Of a DNA stretch of 64,000 bases, positions 7,783 to 29,330 are shown one piece after another. Each line of letters starts with the position of its first letter. Position 1 is the first letter of the stretch. The notes beneath the pieces are model-generated. The model was not told the origin of the DNA and searched no databases. It saw nothing but the letters and a program-made list of their open reading frames with translations. The stretch comes from Syntrophomonas sp. DTU018 (GTDB taxonomy: Bacteria; Bacillota; Syntrophomonadia; Syntrophomonadales; Syntrophomonadaceae): NCBI GenBank assembly GCA_001513155.1, contig LFSR01000006.1, positions 1,938 through 65,937 on the forward strand, written 5' to 3'. Both the position numbers and the translations under genes were made by a program.

Positions 7783-7954
7783 AGCCATGCAGCGATGCTT
7801 TCATTCATCGCAGCCTGTGCACAGGTGACAATTGCTGTGAAATGGCCTGCCAGCTGGCGATGGCAAATAAGATATACTTTGTTAACACTTTGAGGCATAG
7901 CTACATAACGTAATGACAAAGAGTTAAGTATTCTGCTGCTGAGCAAAGGGAATA

Positions 7955-8200
7955 ATGACAGAAAAAAGGAAGTTTGGCACCATGAGAGAGGCATACCAGT
8001 TAATGGTCCCCTCTGCACGAGGGATTCTCTTGCCCCGTTGCTACCTGTGCGGGGAAGTGCCCTCCCAGGGGATTCATGGCGGAATGAAGATCAGAAAAGC
8101 TTTTATTTGCTGCGATTGTGAGCAAGATATAGTTCATATGGAAGTGGGCTCCATCCAATACCAAACCGTAGTCAACAAGTTAAAAGAACTCTTCATTTAA
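7955..8200 (+). CDS. csfB: Anti-sigma-G factor Gin (CsfB family)
   Basis: 81 residues. Gin/CsfB binds sigma-G (and sigma-E in B. subtilis) to time forespore transcription. The family zinc pattern is present: C29xxC32 and C52CxC55, with GIH between and a C-terminal NKLKELFI like the Bacillus YVKKLKSI. Position supports the call: in B. subtilis csfB lies just upstream of yaaO and tmk as here. ATG 7955 has AAAGGG upstream; a shorter start at 7982 is possible. A strong terminator follows at once, so it is monocistronic. Confidence 0.85.
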   Translation: MTEKRKFGTMREAYQLMVPSARGILLPRCYLCGEVPSQGIHGGMKIRKAFICCDCEQDIVHMEVGSIQYQTVVNKLKELFI

Positions 8201-22535: not shown

Positions 22536-22814
22536 GTGAGCTCTCCCAGGCTGATATCGGATATAAGAAAGGATCTGGAATCCTTTGTTGGAAGCAAGAT
22601 CAGGCTGAAGGCTAATCGAGGCAGAAACCGCATCATCGAGAAAGAAGGGATTCTGGAATCCATTTATCCGAATATATTCGTTGTTAAGATAAACGAACGT
22701 AAAGTGGAACGCCGAGTTTCATACAGCTACGCGGATGTGCTGACCGAAACAGTGGAACTGTTTATTTGCGATAACCCCGATGCAGAAATCAGGATAGCCG
22801 CCGCCAATCAATAA
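22536..22814 (+). CDS. veg: Veg family protein (DUF1021)
   Basis: 92 residues, family length. Core LESFVGSKIRLKANRGRNR and the IFVVKINERKVERRVSYSYADVLTETVEL segment are the Veg signature (small SH3-like basic protein). In B. subtilis Veg influences biofilm matrix genes. GTG 22536 follows AGAAGGTGATCTT. It is monocistronic, between a strong promoter and a strong terminator. Confidence 0.94.
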   Translation: MSSPRLISDIRKDLESFVGSKIRLKANRGRNRIIEKEGILESIYPNIFVVKINERKVERRVSYSYADVLTETVELFICDNPDAEIRIAAANQ

Positions 22815-22826
22815 GCAAAATTTGTC

Positions 22827-22859
22827 AAACTGCATGGCAACATGCAGTTTTTCTTTTTT
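22827..22859 (+). terminator. veg terminator
   Basis: AAACTGCAT pairs with ATGCAGTTT over GGCAAC, followed by TTCTTTTTTC. Confidence 0.92.
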
Positions 22860-22923
22860 CTGAGCTGGTGCATATCCGGCTGGATCCCTTGAAAGGCACG
22901 GAAACAGGTTTTAATAGTTATGT

Positions 22924-22952
22924 AACCAAATCTGCTAATCATGCATAGGTTA
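22924..22952 (+). promoter_or_regulatory. SigK-type promoter upstream of the CgeB-like gene
   Basis: AACC, 16 bases, CATAGGTTA, matching the SigK pattern mACm-N16-CATAnnnTA. B. subtilis cgeB is itself SigK-dependent. Confidence 0.6.
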
Positions 22953-22990
22953 TGTTAAGCTGCCTAGAGCATGAAAGCAGGTGATAATGG

Positions 22991-24241
22991 GTGAGAATTC
23001 TATTTGCCAACACGGCCCCCATCGTTAAATATGGCATTGGGCCGGCTTTGGCTGAATTAGGACACGAAGTCCGCTATGTCTTTCTGGACCAGGAGCCTTC
23101 CCTGGAGCCTTATATCGATGAGTTTAAGCCGGATATAGTCTTCAATGACGGGGGTACCGGGCGCATGCCCAAGCTGTTCCCCCTCCTGGAGCAGCGGGGC
23201 ATTCCTCATGTATATTGGGCCATAGAAGATCCCGCCTCTTTTGAGGATCTGTCATTGCCTTATGCCAAAAAGTCGGACGTGGTATTTACTCCTTGTGTGG
23301 AAAGCCTGGCTGATTACCGGCAGCACGGGATAACTGCCCATCTTTTAATGTTTGCCTGTAATCCCAACTACCATCGAGACGGAGCCCCAGATCCCCGTTT
23401 TAATCAAGATATTATTTTTGCCGGCAACAATTATTCCTATCATCCCGCCCGGCAGAGGGGCGTAGCTACGGTCTTGCAGCCTCTGATTGAGCAGGGCTAT
23501 GATGTGCGGGTTTTTGGCAATGAGTGGTGGCTTGATCCCAATCAGGCCTATACTATACCGGTGCAAAACTACGGGGGTTATATGGCCAACGAAGATCTGC
23601 CCGCTGCCTGTGCCACTGCCCGCATCATTTTGGGAATGCACTCCATAGATACCTCCCGCACCATGATGAGTATGCGCACTTTCGAGGTACTGGGCTGCGG
23701 GGGTTTTTATCTGACCCAGTGGACGCCGGCCATTGAAGAACTGTTTATTAACCATTACCACCTGGTGTGGAGCAAAAGCCCGGAAGAGACTTTAGATCTG
23801 GTAAAATTCTACCTGCAGCATCCCGAACTGCGGCAGAAAATTGCCCGCCAGGGACAGGCGGAAGTGTATCGCAAGCACACTTACCAGCAGCGGGTCCGGG
23901 AAACACTTCCCTACCTGCAAAAGTTGACTCCCAGGGCTTTTTACCAGCCCCAAGTACAGGTTGCTTTCCCCACTCCTGCAGTGGCTGCTGCTCCGCCTCC
24001 CGTAGTGGTGGTTCAGCAAGAAGCCCTGCCTGTAAGCGCGTCTATGGACAAGACTTCTCCGGTTCCCGTAGTTGTTGTTCAGCCGCCGCCGGTAAAACCA
24101 GGCCTGCCTTCGGTCCGGATCGCAGCAGCGCACGGCAAAACAACTTCACTAGCACAAGTTTATTCATCCCTGTTTTCCCCGCTGCCCTCCCGGGGAACCA
24201 TTCGCTTTAGCCGAAAACCGGTACGCATAAAATTGTACTGA
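22991..24241 (+). CDS. CgeB-like spore glycosyltransferase
   Basis: 416 residues. The first about 315 form a GT-B glycosyltransferase of the CgeB (spore maturation) type: N-terminal domain with FKPDIVFNDGG and HVYWAIEDPASFED, then DIIFAGNNYSYHPAR, IILGMHSIDTS, RTFEVLGCGGFYLT and a closing HTYQQRV helix. Residues about 318-416 are a Pro/Val/Ala-rich tail ending in basic RFSRKPVRIKLY. It probably sugars spore-surface proteins in the mother cell. GTG 22991 has only a weak site (GCAGGTGATAATGG). First of three glycosyltransferases here; base composition is like its neighbours. Confidence 0.85.
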   Translation: MRILFANTAPIVKYGIGPALAELGHEVRYVFLDQEPSLEPYIDEFKPDIVFNDGGTGRMPKLFPLLEQRGIPHVYWAIEDPASFEDLSLPYAKKSDVVFTPCVESLADYRQHGITAHLLMFACNPNYHRDGAPDPRFNQDIIFAGNNYSYHPARQRGVATVLQPLIEQGYDVRVFGNEWWLDPNQAYTIPVQNYGGYMANEDLPAACATARIILGMHSIDTSRTMMSMRTFEVLGCGGFYLTQWTPAIEELFINHYHLVWSKSPEETLDLVKFYLQHPELRQKIARQGQAEVYRKHTYQQRVRETLPYLQKLTPRAFYQPQVQVAFPTPAVAAAPPPVVVVQQEALPVSASMDKTSPVPVVVVQPPPVKPGLPSVRIAAAHGKTTSLAQVYSSLFSPLPSRGTIRFSRKPVRIKLY

Positions 24242-24248
24242 GCACTGG

Positions 24249-24277
24249 CACCAAAACTGTTATTTTTTCATAGGCTA
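24249..24277 (+). promoter_or_regulatory. SigK-type promoter upstream of the small zinc gene
   Basis: CACC, 16 bases, CATAGGCTA; a full match to mACm-N16-CATAnnnTA. Confidence 0.65.
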
Positions 24278-24324
24278 GCTGTGAATACAGAGTAGACCCA
24301 GTAAAAGGGAGAGGAGGATAAAAC

Positions 24325-24606
24325 ATGAGCCGACCCGTACCTCTCTACCGGCAGGAAAATGTGCTGATTCATAACCGTATCCAACGCTATCAGGCTGTTC
24401 CCCTGCCTGCTGAGGAAGAAAATACCTTTAACGTTAGTACGGCCAAAAAAAGCCGGGTAGTCCCCCAGAGCATATGTTCAGCCTGCGGAACCCGAATGCC
24501 GAAACAGCAAGCCAGAATCTGCCCTTTTTGTGAAGCAGAGCTGTGCCCCACCTGTTACCATAATACCCAGGAGCGCATAGAAGCGGAGAGCGAAGGGGAT
24601 GAGTAG
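24325..24606 (+). CDS. Small zinc-ribbon protein, unknown
   Basis: 93 residues. The N-terminal half is basic and polar with no recognised domain; the C-terminal half has three Cys pairs, C51xxC54, C66xxC69 and C74xxC77, which could bind one or two zinc ions (first two pairs as a ribbon). ATG 24325 follows GAGAGGAGG. It lies between two glycosyltransferase genes with its own SigK-type promoter and terminator, so a late mother-cell protein is likely. No family recognised. Confidence 0.75.
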   Translation: MSRPVPLYRQENVLIHNRIQRYQAVPLPAEEENTFNVSTAKKSRVVPQSICSACGTRMPKQQARICPFCEAELCPTCYHNTQERIEAESEGDE

Positions 24607-24616
24607 ATTATATTAA

Positions 24617-24652
24617 GGTGAGTCACGGGAACTTTCCGGACTCACCCCTTTC
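24617..24652 (+). terminator. Terminator after the zinc gene
   Basis: GGTGAGTC pairs with GACTCACC (24639-24646), with CCTTTCCTTTT following. Confidence 0.75.
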
Positions 24653-24705
24653 CTTTTCTGCGTTTTTTACCAATATTTTTCTCTGCCGGAGAGCCTTGGT
24701 CAGAT

Positions 24706-24734
24706 CACCCCTTGTGTGGACACGGCATACGATA
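24706..24734 (+). promoter_or_regulatory. SigK-type promoter upstream of the GT4 gene
   Basis: CACC, 16 bases, CATACGATA; a full match to mACm-N16-CATAnnnTA. Confidence 0.65.
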
Positions 24735-24776
24735 ATAAAGCAGTTACCAAATTCATAATGGTTAAGGGGGATCTTC

Positions 24777-26198
24777 ATGTCGAATATCAGTGCCATTCTC
24801 TACCCACCCACCTTGGACTTCAATTACCTGGTGCAAAGACCCCAGCAATTGATGAAGAGCTTCGCTCAATTAGGGATACCGGTATTCTTTCTGAACCGAC
24901 CTGGTCCTTATGGAGAACTGCCCACCGGAGTTTCCGAACCCTACCCCAACTTTTACCTCTTTAACAATGTAGATCCGGCTCTCCATCAGAAGGGTATCCG
25001 CCCGGTAGTTTACTACAGTGCCGGTGCCCAGGTTAATGCCTTGCACAAGTATAATCCCAGTCTGATTGTTTTTGACAGCGTTGACGAACCCAGCGATGAA
25101 TTTGAAGCCTGGCGCCCTTTTTACTATCAGGCAGTAGCCAGTGCTGATGTAGTCATTGCTACTTCGGAAAAATTATATTCCATGGCTATAGGGATGAATC
25201 CCAACACTTACCTGGTACCCAACGGCTGTGACTTCGATTACTTCTATCAGGCCAGTACCAGGTCATTGCCTGTTCCCGACGATATCGCCAATATTCCCAA
25301 ACCCATCATCGGCTATACCGGCGTAATCGCCAGCTGGCTGGATCTGGAGCTGATTGACCGCCTGGCGGAAAAGTTTTCTGATTGCAGCATTGTCATGGTG
25401 GGGCCCCTCTACAATATTTCTGATGTACCCCGCCGGCCCAATATTCATTACCTGGGTTTCAAGCCCTACGACCAGCTGGCTGCTTATGAACAGATGTTTG
25501 ACGTAGGTATTGTGCCTTTTAAGGTCACCAGTATGGTGGAATCGGTCAATCCTATTAAAATGTGGGAATATATGGCGGCCGGACTGCCCATTGTAACTAC
25601 CAACCTCCCGGAAGCCGCCAAGTATGCGGATGTGATTTTGTGGTCCCAGAATGAAGCAGAATTCATGGCCAATATTCATCGCGCCCTTTATGAGGATACG
25701 CCCGAGAGAAGGGAAAGGCGCCTGGCAGTAGCCCGGGAAAATTCCTGGCTGGTCAGAGCCCGGCTCATAATTGAAATTATTGAAAAACACCTGGCTGCTA
25801 AAGGGTTTCCCCCTCAGGCTCCTCCGCTGCCCCCTATCGACACCATTCCTTTGCAGCCGGCGGTTGTCGATTTGGAAGCCACTGCCATAGTTTTCAGCGA
25901 TCCCACGCCCACCCGCCATCTGACCGTAGGCCGCAGTACAGCAGCAGGGGCTCCGGGAGAAGGCGGAGTGGTGAGCGCGGGCGGTCCCCGGGTAGTATCC
26001 ATCAGCCAACTCACTCCTACCCGCAGTTTAAAGGTAGGTCGGGGGGTGTCTTTCCGCTTTATTACCGGTTCCGCTGCCCCTCTATTCGCCCGCTTCGGCA
26101 GTGCCATAATTTCAAGGGGATCGATTCATACCCGGGTCAGATCCAGCCGGTCGGCTTTCCGCCTGAAGACTTATCGCGGCATCAGGGCGGGAATATAA
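24777..26198 (+). CDS. GT4-like glycosyltransferase with repeat tail
   Basis: 473 residues. About 1-345 is a GT-B glycosyltransferase of the TuaH/GT4 kind: YLVQRPQQLMKSFAQLG, VFDSVDEPSDE, LVPNGCDFDYF, PIIGYTGVIASWLDLELID and the donor-site NPIKMWEYMAAGLPIVTT. The tail (about 346-473) is Pro- then Arg/Ser-rich and holds an imperfect repeat, TPTRHLTVGR near 378 and TPTRSLKVGR near 412, ending FRLKTYRGIRAGI. This basic tail recalls that of the CgeB-like protein. ATG 24777 follows GGGGGATCTTC. The GT2 gene begins 4 bases after. Confidence 0.87.
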   Translation: MSNISAILYPPTLDFNYLVQRPQQLMKSFAQLGIPVFFLNRPGPYGELPTGVSEPYPNFYLFNNVDPALHQKGIRPVVYYSAGAQVNALHKYNPSLIVFDSVDEPSDEFEAWRPFYYQAVASADVVIATSEKLYSMAIGMNPNTYLVPNGCDFDYFYQASTRSLPVPDDIANIPKPIIGYTGVIASWLDLELIDRLAEKFSDCSIVMVGPLYNISDVPRRPNIHYLGFKPYDQLAAYEQMFDVGIVPFKVTSMVESVNPIKMWEYMAAGLPIVTTNLPEAAKYADVILWSQNEAEFMANIHRALYEDTPERRERRLAVARENSWLVRARLIIEIIEKHLAAKGFPPQAPPLPPIDTIPLQPAVVDLEATAIVFSDPTPTRHLTVGRSTAAGAPGEGGVVSAGGPRVVSISQLTPTRSLKVGRGVSFRFITGSAAPLFARFGSAIISRGSIHTRVRSSRSAFRLKTYRGIRAGI

Positions 26199-26202
26199 GA
26201 CC

Positions 26203-26943
26203 ATGCGGGTAATGATCGGCTGCCCCGTCCGCAACCGGGCCTGGATCCTGCCCCAGTACCTGCAGCACCTGACCGCTCTTGTCTACCCGCCTGATCAGGT
26301 CGAATACTGCTTTGTCATCAATGATTCCCAGGATAAAACCGAGGCCCTTCTGCAGGAATTTGCCCGCCGCTTTCCGGTACGGCTGCTGTATGACAACAGC
26401 AGTCGTCCGGGAGGCTGGCGGCGGGGTTTTTACCGGTTTGATCGCCTGGCAGAGCTGCGCAACCGCTTGCTGGAGGCCTTTTTACAATCCGACTGTGATT
26501 ATTTGTTGTCGGTGGACAGTGATATTCTGGTTCCGCCCCATGCTCTCCAGCAGTTGCTGCGGGCAGAAAAGGATATGATTTCAGCTTTGGTCTGGAATGG
26601 GGCAGAAATAGGCGATGACCAGTTCTACAACATATTTGCCTGGGAAAAGGGCCGCCTGCTGCCGATCCGCGATTTTCCCCGGGACCGGGTCTTTCCCGTG
26701 GACTGTACCGGGGCTGCCTGCCTTATTAATCGCAGGGTCATAGAAGCCGGAGCCAGGTACAACAGCCGCTGGGGACCGGAGGATATCGGATTTTGCAAAG
26801 AGGTCCAAGAACTTGGATTTGCCATATTTTGTCATGGAGCGGTGGAATGTGTTCATGTTATGATGCCGGCCCAGTTAGACTCTTTTTCCAGTCAAGTTTT
26901 CCTTGGAACAGAAGCAATCACATTTTGTAACCAGCGTTCATAG
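26203..26943 (+). CDS. GT2-like glycosyltransferase
   Basis: 246 residues, GT-A fold. It opens MRVMIGCPVRNRAWILPQYL; the DxD metal/sugar-nucleotide motif is SVDSDIL near 107-109; GPEDIGFCKEVQELGF is the acceptor-side acidic motif. No membrane segment. ATG 26203, four bases after the GT4 stop and translationally coupled; probably adds the next sugar in the same spore-surface glycan. A SigK-type promoter for the next gene lies across its stop codon. Confidence 0.85.
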   Translation: MRVMIGCPVRNRAWILPQYLQHLTALVYPPDQVEYCFVINDSQDKTEALLQEFARRFPVRLLYDNSSRPGGWRRGFYRFDRLAELRNRLLEAFLQSDCDYLLSVDSDILVPPHALQQLLRAEKDMISALVWNGAEIGDDQFYNIFAWEKGRLLPIRDFPRDRVFPVDCTGAACLINRRVIEAGARYNSRWGPEDIGFCKEVQELGFAIFCHGAVECVHVMMPAQLDSFSSQVFLGTEAITFCNQRS

Positions 26944-26947
26944 TATA
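26919..26947 (+). promoter_or_regulatory. SigK-type promoter upstream of the SPOCS-like gene
   Basis: CACA, 16 bases, CATAGTATA; full match to mACm-N16-CATAnnnTA, inside the end of the GT2 gene. Confidence 0.6.
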
Positions 26948-27021
26948 TCCTAGAAATTTAACCATAGAGAAACAGGCCTGATAAACAGGCCGTTAGAGCC
27001 AAAGAGGAGGGAAAGTAATTC

Positions 27022-27585
27022 ATGGCTGAACTGAAGTGTGAATTTCCGGAGGGTTGTAGGCTAGACTTATTTGCCAAGGTTATCAAAGCCAAATTTGTTG
27101 AAAAACAGGTCAAGATCCTGGACACCATGTTCTGTGTTCCTGATGAGCAGGTTGGCGGCAAGATCACCAATGTAGAAGACATTAAGGTCAAAATACTGAA
27201 CACCTTTGAGGATTTGGCCTTTAATCGGGTCAAGATTTTCATCGATTATGAGGTAATCCTGTTTGTCTTGGTGGAAGGCGAATACCAGATCATCACGGTA
27301 ACTGACCGTTTCGACAAGACCATTGAACTGGATGAGTTTGACCCGCCGCTGACCATTGAGGAATTCCGGGCTGAGATTGAGCAGTCGGATATTATTCTTA
27401 AGAACTGGTCATTCGATTTTGAGATCCGGGGCAACTGCGAAGATCCTACCAATCCCTGCAACTTGACTACACCCATCCGGGGTACCTGCATTGGCCTGCG
27501 GGTATTTGTGGACATCATTGACAAACTGGGCAAGATGCACGACGTTATTGTCTTTGGGGAACTGGATCCCGAAGTCGATTGCTAA
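27022..27585 (+). CDS. SPOCS/DUF3794-like spore coat-associated protein
   Basis: 187 residues, rich in beta strand and acidic residues, no signal peptide. Long alternating strands (VKIFIDYEVILFVLVEGEYQ, GLRVFVDIIDKLGKMHDVIV) resemble the SPOCS/DUF3794 domain found in SipL and clostridial coat proteins, but the match is by eye. Cysteines at both ends may cross-link. ATG 27022 follows AAGAGGAGGGAAAG. Placed behind three glycosyltransferases and a SigK-type promoter, it may be a glycosylated or structural coat protein. Confidence 0.6.
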   Translation: MAELKCEFPEGCRLDLFAKVIKAKFVEKQVKILDTMFCVPDEQVGGKITNVEDIKVKILNTFEDLAFNRVKIFIDYEVILFVLVEGEYQIITVTDRFDKTIELDEFDPPLTIEEFRAEIEQSDIILKNWSFDFEIRGNCEDPTNPCNLTTPIRGTCIGLRVFVDIIDKLGKMHDVIVFGELDPEVDC

Positions 27586-27603
27586 ATCATGGGAAAATGC
27601 TGT

Positions 27604-27630
27604 ATGCCTGGCCGTTGCCGGGCATTTTTC
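27604..27630 (+). terminator. Terminator after the SPOCS-like gene
   Basis: ATGCCTGGC with GCCGGGCAT (one G-T pair) around CGTT, then TTTTTC. Confidence 0.8.
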
Positions 27631-27651
27631 TTCTGATTTGGAGGTGATTTC

Positions 27652-27894
27652 GTGAGCCAGAGTGCCCTAAAGAATGTTCAGGACATAAAAATAACGCGTC
27701 AGCAGAAAAACCAGATGCGCGCCCAGTTGGAGGATATATTGCAGGTCCACAAGATGCTGGACAGCCGCATCGAGACCTACCAGCAGCAAACTGACCATCC
27801 TGAGTACCGACGCTTTTGGGAGGAAATGAAACAGCGCAACCAGCAGAACATCCAGGTGGTTGCCCGCTATATGGTTATGAAATGCAACCGCTGA
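27652..27894 (+). CDS. Small helical protein, unknown
   Basis: 80 residues, Gln/Arg/Lys-rich, predicted two long helices: QQKNQMRAQLEDILQVHKML and FWEEMKQRNQQNIQVVARYM. It looks like half of a four-helix bundle and faintly recalls CotF/ferritin-like coat proteins, but I do not claim the family. GTG 27652 follows GGAGGTGATTTC. It lies after the SPOCS-like terminator, so it relies on read-through or an unseen promoter. Confidence 0.65.
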   Translation: MSQSALKNVQDIKITRQQKNQMRAQLEDILQVHKMLDSRIETYQQQTDHPEYRRFWEEMKQRNQQNIQVVARYMVMKCNR

Positions 27895-27987
27895 ATATAA
27901 CCCCGCCAGCCGGGTGCTGGTCAAAAAGTTTTTCATTGTGTCATTGCTGTGAAAATGGCTTTCATGTCAGTAAAAAGGCAACCATTG

Positions 27988-28020
27988 TGTCATCGCGAGC
28001 GCGTAGCGCGTGGCGATCCC
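27988..28020 (+). repeat. GTCATTGCGAG-type palindromic repeat, copy 4
   Basis: TGTCATCGCGAGCGCGTAGC and onward to GTGGCGATCCC; the dyad centre is GCGCGTAGCGCG. Same family as the copies near the 5S gene. Confidence 0.6.
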
Positions 28021-28067
28021 AATATCAATTTTAGATAACCAAGGCTTGCAGGAGTTTAGACCGGGAG

Positions 28068-28114
28068 GCAGGAGTATTAGCCGGCTCGTTCGAGTACTCC
28101 TCGCCTGCAACCCA
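28068..28114 (-). repeat. GGGTTGCA...CTCCTGC repeat, copy D (inverted)
   Basis: Plus strand GGCAGGAGTATTAGCCGGCT then a hairpin centre and CTGCAACCC. It is the inverted partner of copy B, 112 bases away. Confidence 0.65.
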
Positions 28115-28226
28115 TTGGCAAACTTTAAGTGCGAAGGGGACCGCTCATAATTCGGCATCCCTGCACTCAGTACTCGCTACTCGAAAAGTACTGCTTATCG
28201 TTCCCCTTCGCAGCCCCAGACTCATC

Positions 28227-28275
28227 TGGGTTGCAACGGCTCGTCGTAAGTCACTAGCCCGGCTAATACTCCTGC
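28227..28275 (+). repeat. GGGTTGCA...CTCCTGC repeat, copy B
   Basis: TGGGTTGCAACGGCTCGTCG through GGCTAATACTCCTGC. About 43 of 49 positions agree with the reverse complement of copy C at 44949-44997, over 16 kb away. Confidence 0.7.
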
Positions 28276-28364
28276 TTAACTGCGCTGTGTTATCGCTAGT
28301 AGCGAAGCGACGTAGCGATTTCCAACAGGACTTTCAGATGATTGAGAGATGGGAGGGGGCAGAG

Positions 28365-29330
28365 ATGCAAGACCGCGGTAAAAGATTGGGAGTAGCCCTG
28401 GGAGGAGGAGGGTTAAGAGGTTTTGCCCATATCGGGGTTTTGCAGGTGCTGGAGGATAAACGAATACCCATAAGCTATCTGTCAGGTACCAGTGCCGGGG
28501 CTTTGGTGGCTGCCCTGTATGCCAGCGGTCTTTCTGCCTACCGGATCGAAGAACTGGCCCGCTCCCTGCAGCCGTCCGATTATCTTGACTACAATATAAG
28601 CGGACTTTTCAAGTATATCCTGTCCCGCTACCTGCCCGGAATGGATGCACCCTTGCAGGGAATTATCAAAGGAGACAAGATACAGAAAATCATTTACCAG
28701 TGGACCGGCGGCAAATCCCTTCAAGACTGCAAACTGCCCCTGGCCATCATTGCCTGCGACATTGACAGCGGGCGGGAAGTGGTTTTCACCAATCAAAACC
28801 TAGAATGGAAAACCGGGGAAACGGTAGTGGTGCAGGATGCCCTCCTCTCCGAAGCAGTACGGGCCAGCATAGCCATTCCTGCCACCTTTGTTCCCCTGGA
28901 TCTTGCCGGGATGCAATTGGTAGACGGGGGGTTGAAAAGCATCGTACCGGTAACTGCCCAAAAGGTAATGGGGGCCGAATATATAATGGCGGTGAATTTG
29001 GGCACATCCTACTACCGGGAGAAAGTTGCCGGCATACCTTCCATAATCAGCCGCTCCATAAGCATACTGACTTATGAAACCTCGGAAACAGAACAGCGCC
29101 TTTTTGCCGACCTGGTGATCAAACCCCGGGTACAGTCAGTAGGCCTGGATGATTGGGAGGAAGCCCTGGGTTTTATCCGGGCGGGCCGGCGAGCTATGCT
29201 GAGGCAGGTGGAAAAATTGGAAAAGGATTTGTATAGCGGCCCATACTGTAACAGAAATACTGCTGAACACATATACTATCGACAAAGCAATAAATGCCAA
29301 CAATCTCTCAGGCGGCGGGGAGGGGGTTAA
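28365..29330 (+). CDS. Patatin-like phospholipase (RssA/YlbK type)
   Basis: 321 residues. Ser-Asp lipid acyl hydrolase: oxyanion loop GGGGLRG at 13-19, nucleophile elbow GTSAG with Ser43, and the catalytic Asp in LVDGGLKS. No signal peptide, so cytoplasmic or membrane-associated. The substrate is probably phospholipid. ATG 28365 is chosen for GGAGGGGGCAGAG just before it. A ribbon-helix-helix gene follows after one base and shares the transcript. Confidence 0.92.
   Translation: MQDRGKRLGVALGGGGLRGFAHIGVLQVLEDKRIPISYLSGTSAGALVAALYASGLSAYRIEELARSLQPSDYLDYNISGLFKYILSRYLPGMDAPLQGIIKGDKIQKIIYQWTGGKSLQDCKLPLAIIACDIDSGREVVFTNQNLEWKTGETVVVQDALLSEAVRASIAIPATFVPLDLAGMQLVDGGLKSIVPVTAQKVMGAEYIMAVNLGTSYYREKVAGIPSIISRSISILTYETSETEQRLFADLVIKPRVQSVGLDDWEEALGFIRAGRRAMLRQVEKLEKDLYSGPYCNRNTAEHIYYRQSNKCQQSLRRRGGG

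Follow-up and report, generated by a model that had tools for sequence, protein, structure and literature searches.

A candidate SigK-dependent gene cluster for spore-surface glycosylation in Syntrophomonas sp. DTU018

SigK is the last mother-cell sigma factor of sporulation and acts while the outer spore layers are built; in Bacillus subtilis it controls the cge operons. Spore-surface glycans determine adhesion and wetting; detailed studies of them come chiefly from Bacillus and Clostridioides difficile. The operons cgeAB and cgeCDE are described as restricted to the B. subtilis group, with none in clostridia (PMC3533761), and in C. difficile SgtA is reported to add GlcNAc to threonine within the collagen repeats of BclA3 (PMC7157674). 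Syntrophic degraders of fatty acids are difficult to grow in culture, and a search of an open-access library gave no paper on the SigK regulon or the spore coat of these organisms. Here, we describe a gene cluster next to veg in Syntrophomonas sp. DTU018, an anaerobe that degrades fatty acids and has Syntrophomonas, Thermosyntropha and Syntrophothermus as its nearest named relatives. The cluster lies on a stretch of 64,000 nucleotides (contig LFSR01000006.1, positions 1,938 to 65,937; hereafter the window) from an assembly of 2.56 Mb in 59 contigs that is 99.9% complete. Judging from its promoter sequences, it is very probably under SigK control in this organism, and it probably serves, late in the mother cell, to make and glycosylate an outer spore layer.

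SigK-type promoters and the sigma factor

Promoters were defined strictly as mACm-N16-CATAnnnTA, with a spacer of 16 bases. A first-pass annotation had proposed four such sites within a glycosylation island at 22924-27894, and all four were found where it had placed them (Table 1, promoters 1 to 4), 38 to 74 bases upstream of the respective start codons. Their placement before the CgeB-like, zinc-ribbon, glycosyltransferase family 4 (GT4) and 187-aa genes stands, but no support was found for the label “SPOCS-like” that the last of these genes had received. Two further sites in the window, at 7884 and 29250, are not noise, as they precede gin/csfB and the gene of a ribbon-helix-helix (RHH) protein, respectively. 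Since the latter site precedes the RHH gene, the cluster extends beyond the proposed end, to approximately 29493. In total the window holds six strict matches, compared with a mean of 0.36 in 100 dinucleotide shuffles, none of which reached six. Genome-wide the pattern occurs 24 times (six of them in the window), compared with 14 for the reversed control, and for the five plus-strand sites within 6.35 kb the Poisson probability at the rate of the remaining genome is about 6e-11, a post hoc value for a stretch that was picked by its sites. Outside the window most sites fall within long genes and look like chance, and the intergenic ones include those of sigK and a spoVK-like gene. Because the reversed control also yields 14 matches, a single strict match is weak evidence, and it is place and conservation that sort the sites.

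Conservation was read from the 250 bases upstream of each gene in 32 named contigs of Syntrophomonas, Thermosyntropha and Syntrophothermus, together with the window. The 187-aa gene is preceded by a strict site in all 29 contigs that could be compared (window included), always with the 16-base spacer, and the RHH gene in 22 of 29 homologous places, the other seven having looser sites with the same spacer (a few genomes are counted twice). Strict sites precede 14 of the 31 GT4 homologues and nine of the 27 CgeB homologues, with looser matches at a further five and 11; loose sites are likelier than strict ones to be chance. For the zinc gene the site is strict in four of six cases or, with a wider start criterion, in six of 12, the other six being looser (spacer of 15 or imperfect −10 box). 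By contrast, none of 160 regions upstream of other genes (metG, 3D/YabE-like, ksgA, RNase-H-like, veg, 270-aa gene, GT2, 80-aa, patatin, ispE and gntR) carries a strict site, and spacers of 12-15 and 17-20 bases gave one match in 253 regions. In a second set of loci promoter 4 is strict at all 53 readable starts among 55 loci; of the two leftover loci one has the site, while it is missing from the other, which is an additional copy of the gene in one of the genomes. This set overlaps with the 29 contigs, the same genomes being in both and some loci repeated. Family-wide, 1190 sites were counted compared with 721 control sites in 37 genomes, 33 of which exceed their own control.

The sigma factor itself is encoded, as the genome search suggested by the first-pass annotation revealed: sigK is intact in the host (349 bits, NCBIfam cut-off 298.65). 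In region 4.2 the host SigK has GISRSYVSR and the host SigE GISQSYISR, and an Arg/Gln difference is reported to explain the reading of the −35 box, AC by SigK and ATA by SigE, with the −10 box common to both (PMC3789822); we read the Arg and Gln of these two motifs as the discriminator residues. Three positive controls have strict sites as well: sigK at a distance of 31 bases, the spoVK-like gene (406.9 bits, slightly under the cut-off of 422.95) at 30 and gin at 42 bases upstream. The last case provides an internal positive control, and the comparison serves here as nothing more: the promoter of B. subtilis csfB is driven by SigK, as determined experimentally, and is read in vitro by SigK but not by SigE (PMC4383634), and gin in the window has a promoter of the same type. 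It is possible that this clade has the SigE-to-SigK switch demonstrated in B. subtilis; C. difficile is described as lacking CsfB (PMC3789822). Three of 61 genomes are without a SigK-grade match (G017, G042 and G059), and these are also without the 187-aa gene. In several relatives (e.g. G001, G004, G021 and G031) sigK appears split, with halves ending at about residue 117-155 and starting at about residue 108-112, as would result from a skin-like insertion or from the limits of contigs; the host gene is whole.

The encoded proteins

In the window the gene order is ksgA, RNase-H-like, veg, CgeB-like glycosyltransferase, 93-aa zinc protein, GT4, glycosyltransferase family 2 (GT2), 187-aa, 80-aa, patatin-like and 53-aa RHH (Table 1). 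This order is kept in relatives, some of which have an extra gene, encoding about 270 aa, between veg and cgeB. The Syntrophothermus group (L116, L118, L119 and L121) shows rearrangements, with a duplication of CgeB and an inversion of CgeB and GT4 with respect to veg, but the 187-aa gene keeps its strict site.

Table 1. Features of the cluster and of the gin/csfB control locus (positions in the window)
Feature	Position	Strand	Remarks
SigK-type promoter of gin/csfB	7884..7912	+	AACA-N16-CATAACGTA; internal positive control
Gin/CsfB anti-sigma factor	7955..8200	+	PF10764 44.5 bits, cut-off 27
veg	22536-22814		
Terminator-like hairpin	22827..22850	+	between veg and cluster; 10-pair stem, then T run
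SigK-type promoter 1	22924..22952	+	AACC-N16-CATAGGTTA; before CgeB-like gene
CgeB-like glycosyltransferase, 416 aa	22991..24241	+	PF13524 E 7.8e-30, DUF3880 E 9.1e-8
SigK-type promoter 2	24249..24277	+	CACC-N16-CATAGGCTA; before 93-aa zinc gene
93-aa zinc-ribbon-type protein	24325..24606	+	six conserved Cys
SigK-type promoter 3	24706..24734	+	CACC-N16-CATACGATA; before GT4 gene
GT4-type glycosyltransferase, 473 aa	24777..26198	+	TuaH-like core; PF13692 37.8 bits, cut-off 27
GT2/Anp1-like glycosyltransferase, 246 aa	26203..26943	+	PF03452 54.8 bits, PF00535 34.8 bits (cut-off 23.3)
SigK-type promoter 4	26919..26947	+	CACA-N16-CATAGTATA; overlaps GT2 gene end, before 187-aa gene
Conserved leader	26948..27021	+	begins TCCTAGAAATTT; downstream of promoter 4
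187-aa orphan protein	27022..27585	+	candidate coat or outer-layer protein
Terminator-like hairpin	27604..27625	+	3' of 187-aa gene; 9-pair stem, T run
80-aa protein	27652..27894	+	conserved C-terminal KCNR
Patatin-like phospholipase	28287..29330	+	PF01734 95.8 bits; conserved neighbour
SigK-type promoter 5	29250..29278	+	AACA-N16-CATATACTA; inside patatin gene end, before RHH gene
RHH DNA-binding protein, 53 aa	29332..29493	+	PF01402 32.0 bits, cut-off 20.5

The three glycosyltransferases that had been proposed are confirmed by Pfam. The CgeB-like protein passes the cut-offs of both its domains (PF13524, 104.2 bits against 25; DUF3880, 32.7 bits against 25.2), while the nearest NCBIfam model of GT4 is TuaH (NF047676), at E 1e-25 and far under the cut-off of that model. 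The GT2 gene begins four bases after GT4, has no promoter of its own that could be seen, and its product keeps D105-S106-D107 (DxD) in at least 95% of 29 homologues. The sole match of GT2 among solved structures, procollagen galactosyltransferase 1 at E 0.002, is too weak to be used for an assignment as a collagen glycosyltransferase, and neither the CgeB-like protein nor GT4 matched a solved structure at E 0.01. Both of the latter have basic tails, which in the CgeB-like protein is Pro/Ser-rich, ends in VRIKLY and has a net charge of +10, and in GT4 contains two copies of an L-x-V..R...FR motif. Such tails are present in all 29 full-length GT4 homologues (net charge +3 to +20) and in most CgeB homologues; they diverge fast, although a short repeat around FR.xT persists in many of them. 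To see whether the motif is a general sorting signal, the host genome was searched with a profile built from 12 GT4 tails, which finds GT4 alone, so that a shared tail signal on other coat proteins is unsupported at this sensitivity.

The name “zinc protein” is supported in part, since C51, C54, C66, C69, C74 and C77 are kept in at least 95% of 12 aligned homologues, but the match to Pfam Zn_ribbon_3 (20.0 bits) is under the cut-off of 27. The 80-aa gene has the same position in most relatives and is without a SigK site of its own. Likewise, the neighbour position of the patatin-like gene is kept, although its start is uncertain, as the alignments with most homologues begin only at about residue 24-32. 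The two terminator-like hairpins are no proof of termination, because 13 such sites were found compared with 8.7 in shuffles.

The 187-aa protein has neither a Pfam match (E up to 10) nor an NCBIfam match (E up to 0.01), and its family forms an alignment of 27 rows with a mean column identity of 77%. The AlphaFold model, of intermediate confidence (pLDDT 78.6), shows an all-beta fold apart from one helix and has no Foldseek match at E≤0.001; the best VIA match, a small heat-shock protein, has a Z of 4.9. An assignment to SPOCS (PF12673) found no support, with no PF12673 match at E up to 10 and an hhalign probability of 0.5% against ten SipL-like repeats cut by motif from four proteins, so that none of Pfam, NCBIfam, hhalign, Foldseek and VIA supports the earlier label. 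PF12673, which was searched in 41 genomes, has no match anywhere in that of the host. Profile comparison revealed a single relationship, with the N-terminal part of the 270-aa protein of relatives (hhalign probability 94.9%), which itself is only weakly similar to SipL (18.6%). This 270-aa protein is encoded in 15 contigs of relatives between veg and cgeB or GT4 (e.g. L093:5319-6131); besides the 187-aa-related N-terminal domain it has a coiled coil, and its C-terminal end is a conserved one of the GxRIKRLF type; its gene had no match in the host genome, where 22815-22990 corresponds to its place in the relatives, in a search that lacked a positive control.

The 187-aa family was found in 20 of 398 genomes of the phylum, 15 of this order, four of one other family and one of another, and related genes in both of these other Bacillota families have SigK-like sites. 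Each of the four genes has two CAC-type sites in front of it, in which 16 bases separate the −35 box from a −10 box of CATAnnATG, while in the single genome of the third family a strict site stands before an N-terminal fragment of the gene. Since these homologues have SigK-type sites, and the copy in one of the four (L137, for which the neighbours are listed) adjoins gntR and ispE, this suggests that the 187-aa gene is an old SigK-controlled gene of the veg-ispE locus.

The bases that would open the transcript from promoter 4 (TCCTAGAAATTT) are nearly as conserved as the promoter itself. The leaders of many relatives contain a GAAATTTG/CAAATTTC dyad, plain by eye in about two-thirds, of which the window keeps only half; the exact dyad occurs in 13 of 54 family genomes, in all 13 at this leader and nowhere else there. 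RNAalifold predicted no pairs for 25 of the 29 leaders (four from the Syntrophothermus group were left out of the alignment), and the leader has no match in Rfam. Good covariation was not seen; the dyad may be an operator or a 5' hairpin.

Collagen-repeat (BclA-like) proteins are encoded elsewhere in the host genome, on contigs C21 and C12, with near-consensus sites of 16-base spacing (CACT...CATAGTATA and CACA...CATATATTG) 44 and 31 bases before the likely starts; the gene on C21 is followed by one for a GT2-TPR glycosyltransferase. Of the BclA-like collagen-repeat genes with SigK-like sites at L175:1572-3239 and on the minus strand of L176, one has a GT2-TPR glycosyltransferase gene after it and the other is next to sugar-nucleotide genes.

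Proposed role and alternatives

After engulfment, pro-SigK would be activated in the mother cell, and the SigK polymerase would transcribe from five or more promoters in the stretch from 22924 to 29278, giving rise to the CgeB-like glycosyltransferase, the six-cysteine zinc protein, GT4 and GT2 from one transcript, the structural-looking 187-aa protein and the RHH regulator. The enzymes would act in the mother-cell cytoplasm, the site of outer-layer assembly, where the glycosyltransferases could build a glycan on outer-layer proteins and the basic tails of CgeB and GT4 may hold the enzymes at the assembling spore surface. No promoter and leader are better conserved than those of the 187-aa gene, the product of which would be a structural component or a glycan acceptor; the two collagen-repeat proteins are alternative acceptor candidates. 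Spore-surface glycosylation is a rather likely purpose of the cluster, a plausible reading that draws on the presence of glycosyltransferases, on co-regulation and on analogy. The late mother-cell glycosylation system proposed at first is partly supported: regulation by SigK has strong backing from the sites, the sigK gene, the controls and conservation, while the decoration is plausible. A bolder model, which we consider doubtful, holds that Syntrophomonadales spores have an outer layer of their own around the previously unnamed 187-aa family, that the RHH protein is a late regulator in the place of GerE, possibly via the GAAATTTG/CAAATTTC dyad, and that the basic repeat tails of CgeB and GT4 are a new device for keeping glycosyltransferases at the growing surface.

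Several observations weigh against a SigK-driven system of spore-surface glycosylation. GT4 has neither a strict nor a loose site at 12 of the 31 loci, and CgeB at seven of the 27; readthrough could explain part, but not all, of the siteless GT4 loci, since six have the zinc gene, with its own strict or loose site, directly upstream. In the Syntrophothermus group, which belongs to the same order but to another family, the glycosyltransferase genes are rearranged, only the 187-aa site is strict and the RHH site is near-consensus, and this family has no genome-wide excess of sites (102 compared with 101 in the control, five genomes). Moreover, most sigK-bearing genomes outside this order are without the 187-aa gene, which is therefore not required for spores generally.

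Among the alternatives, it is unlikely, though conceivable, that SigK drives the cluster while the glycosyltransferases make a cortex- or wall-associated polymer or a storage polymer in the mother cell instead of decorating the surface. The glycosyltransferases could indeed make a soluble or wall polymer, and the core of GT4 is closest, under the cut-off, to TuaH of teichuronic acid synthesis; however, SigK is generally known to act during construction of the outer layers, no enzyme family is matched by the 187-aa protein that shares this regulation, and no transporter or polymerase gene was seen in the cluster. Much less probable is early mother-cell expression from SigE promoters. A sigE gene is present and SigE is reported to share the −10 box with SigK (PMC3789822), but the −35 box is CAC or AAC at all five sites, whereas SigE needs ATA, and AC is invariant in the 28 distinct sequences of promoter 4 (the scan required AC, yet no gene lacked it). 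In addition, the same motif precedes gin, the B. subtilis counterpart of which is the promoter read in vitro by SigK and not by SigE (PMC4383634). Finally, the probability of chance matches, picked out by the first-pass annotation, is negligible: A/T-rich intergenic DNA does often yield CATAnnnTA and the reversed control has its 14 genome matches, but the shuffles, the 29 of 29 sites at a fixed spacer and the 160 siteless control regions contradict this.

Relation to described systems

The cluster would represent a known kind of system, SigK-driven spore-surface glycosylation, with a new gene set. What is gained is a concrete set of five SigK promoters and a promoter definition that also marks sigK, the spoVK-like gene and gin, and the orphan 187-aa family offers a target to seek in the spores of the cultured Thermosyntropha lipolytica and Syntrophomonas wolfei.

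The SipL/SPOCS coat morphogenetic proteins resemble the 187-aa protein in the all-beta prediction, the place beside veg and the related 270-aa protein found there in relatives, but differ in view of the missing PF12673 match and the hhalign probability given above. With the SgtA-BclA3 system of C. difficile the host would share spore-surface glycosylation with collagen-repeat proteins, and it has a collagen-repeat gene and a GT2-TPR gene paired on C21; this pair lies, however, on another contig, and the cluster in the window includes three different glycosyltransferases but lacks a collagen gene. The cluster also resembles cgeAB/cgeCDE and the other SigK-dependent crust polysaccharide genes of B. 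subtilis, where a CgeB-type glycosyltransferase likewise has a SigK-type promoter and a set of glycosyltransferases and small proteins is presumed to act in the outermost layer. The gene set and locus differ, and no cgeA was recognised here, no cgeA model having been searched; the relation to B. subtilis CgeB is one of shared Pfam domains, without a direct alignment. Since the cge operons have been held to be confined to the B. subtilis group (PMC3533761), a SigK-driven CgeB-type gene in this lineage would extend the known range of such genes.

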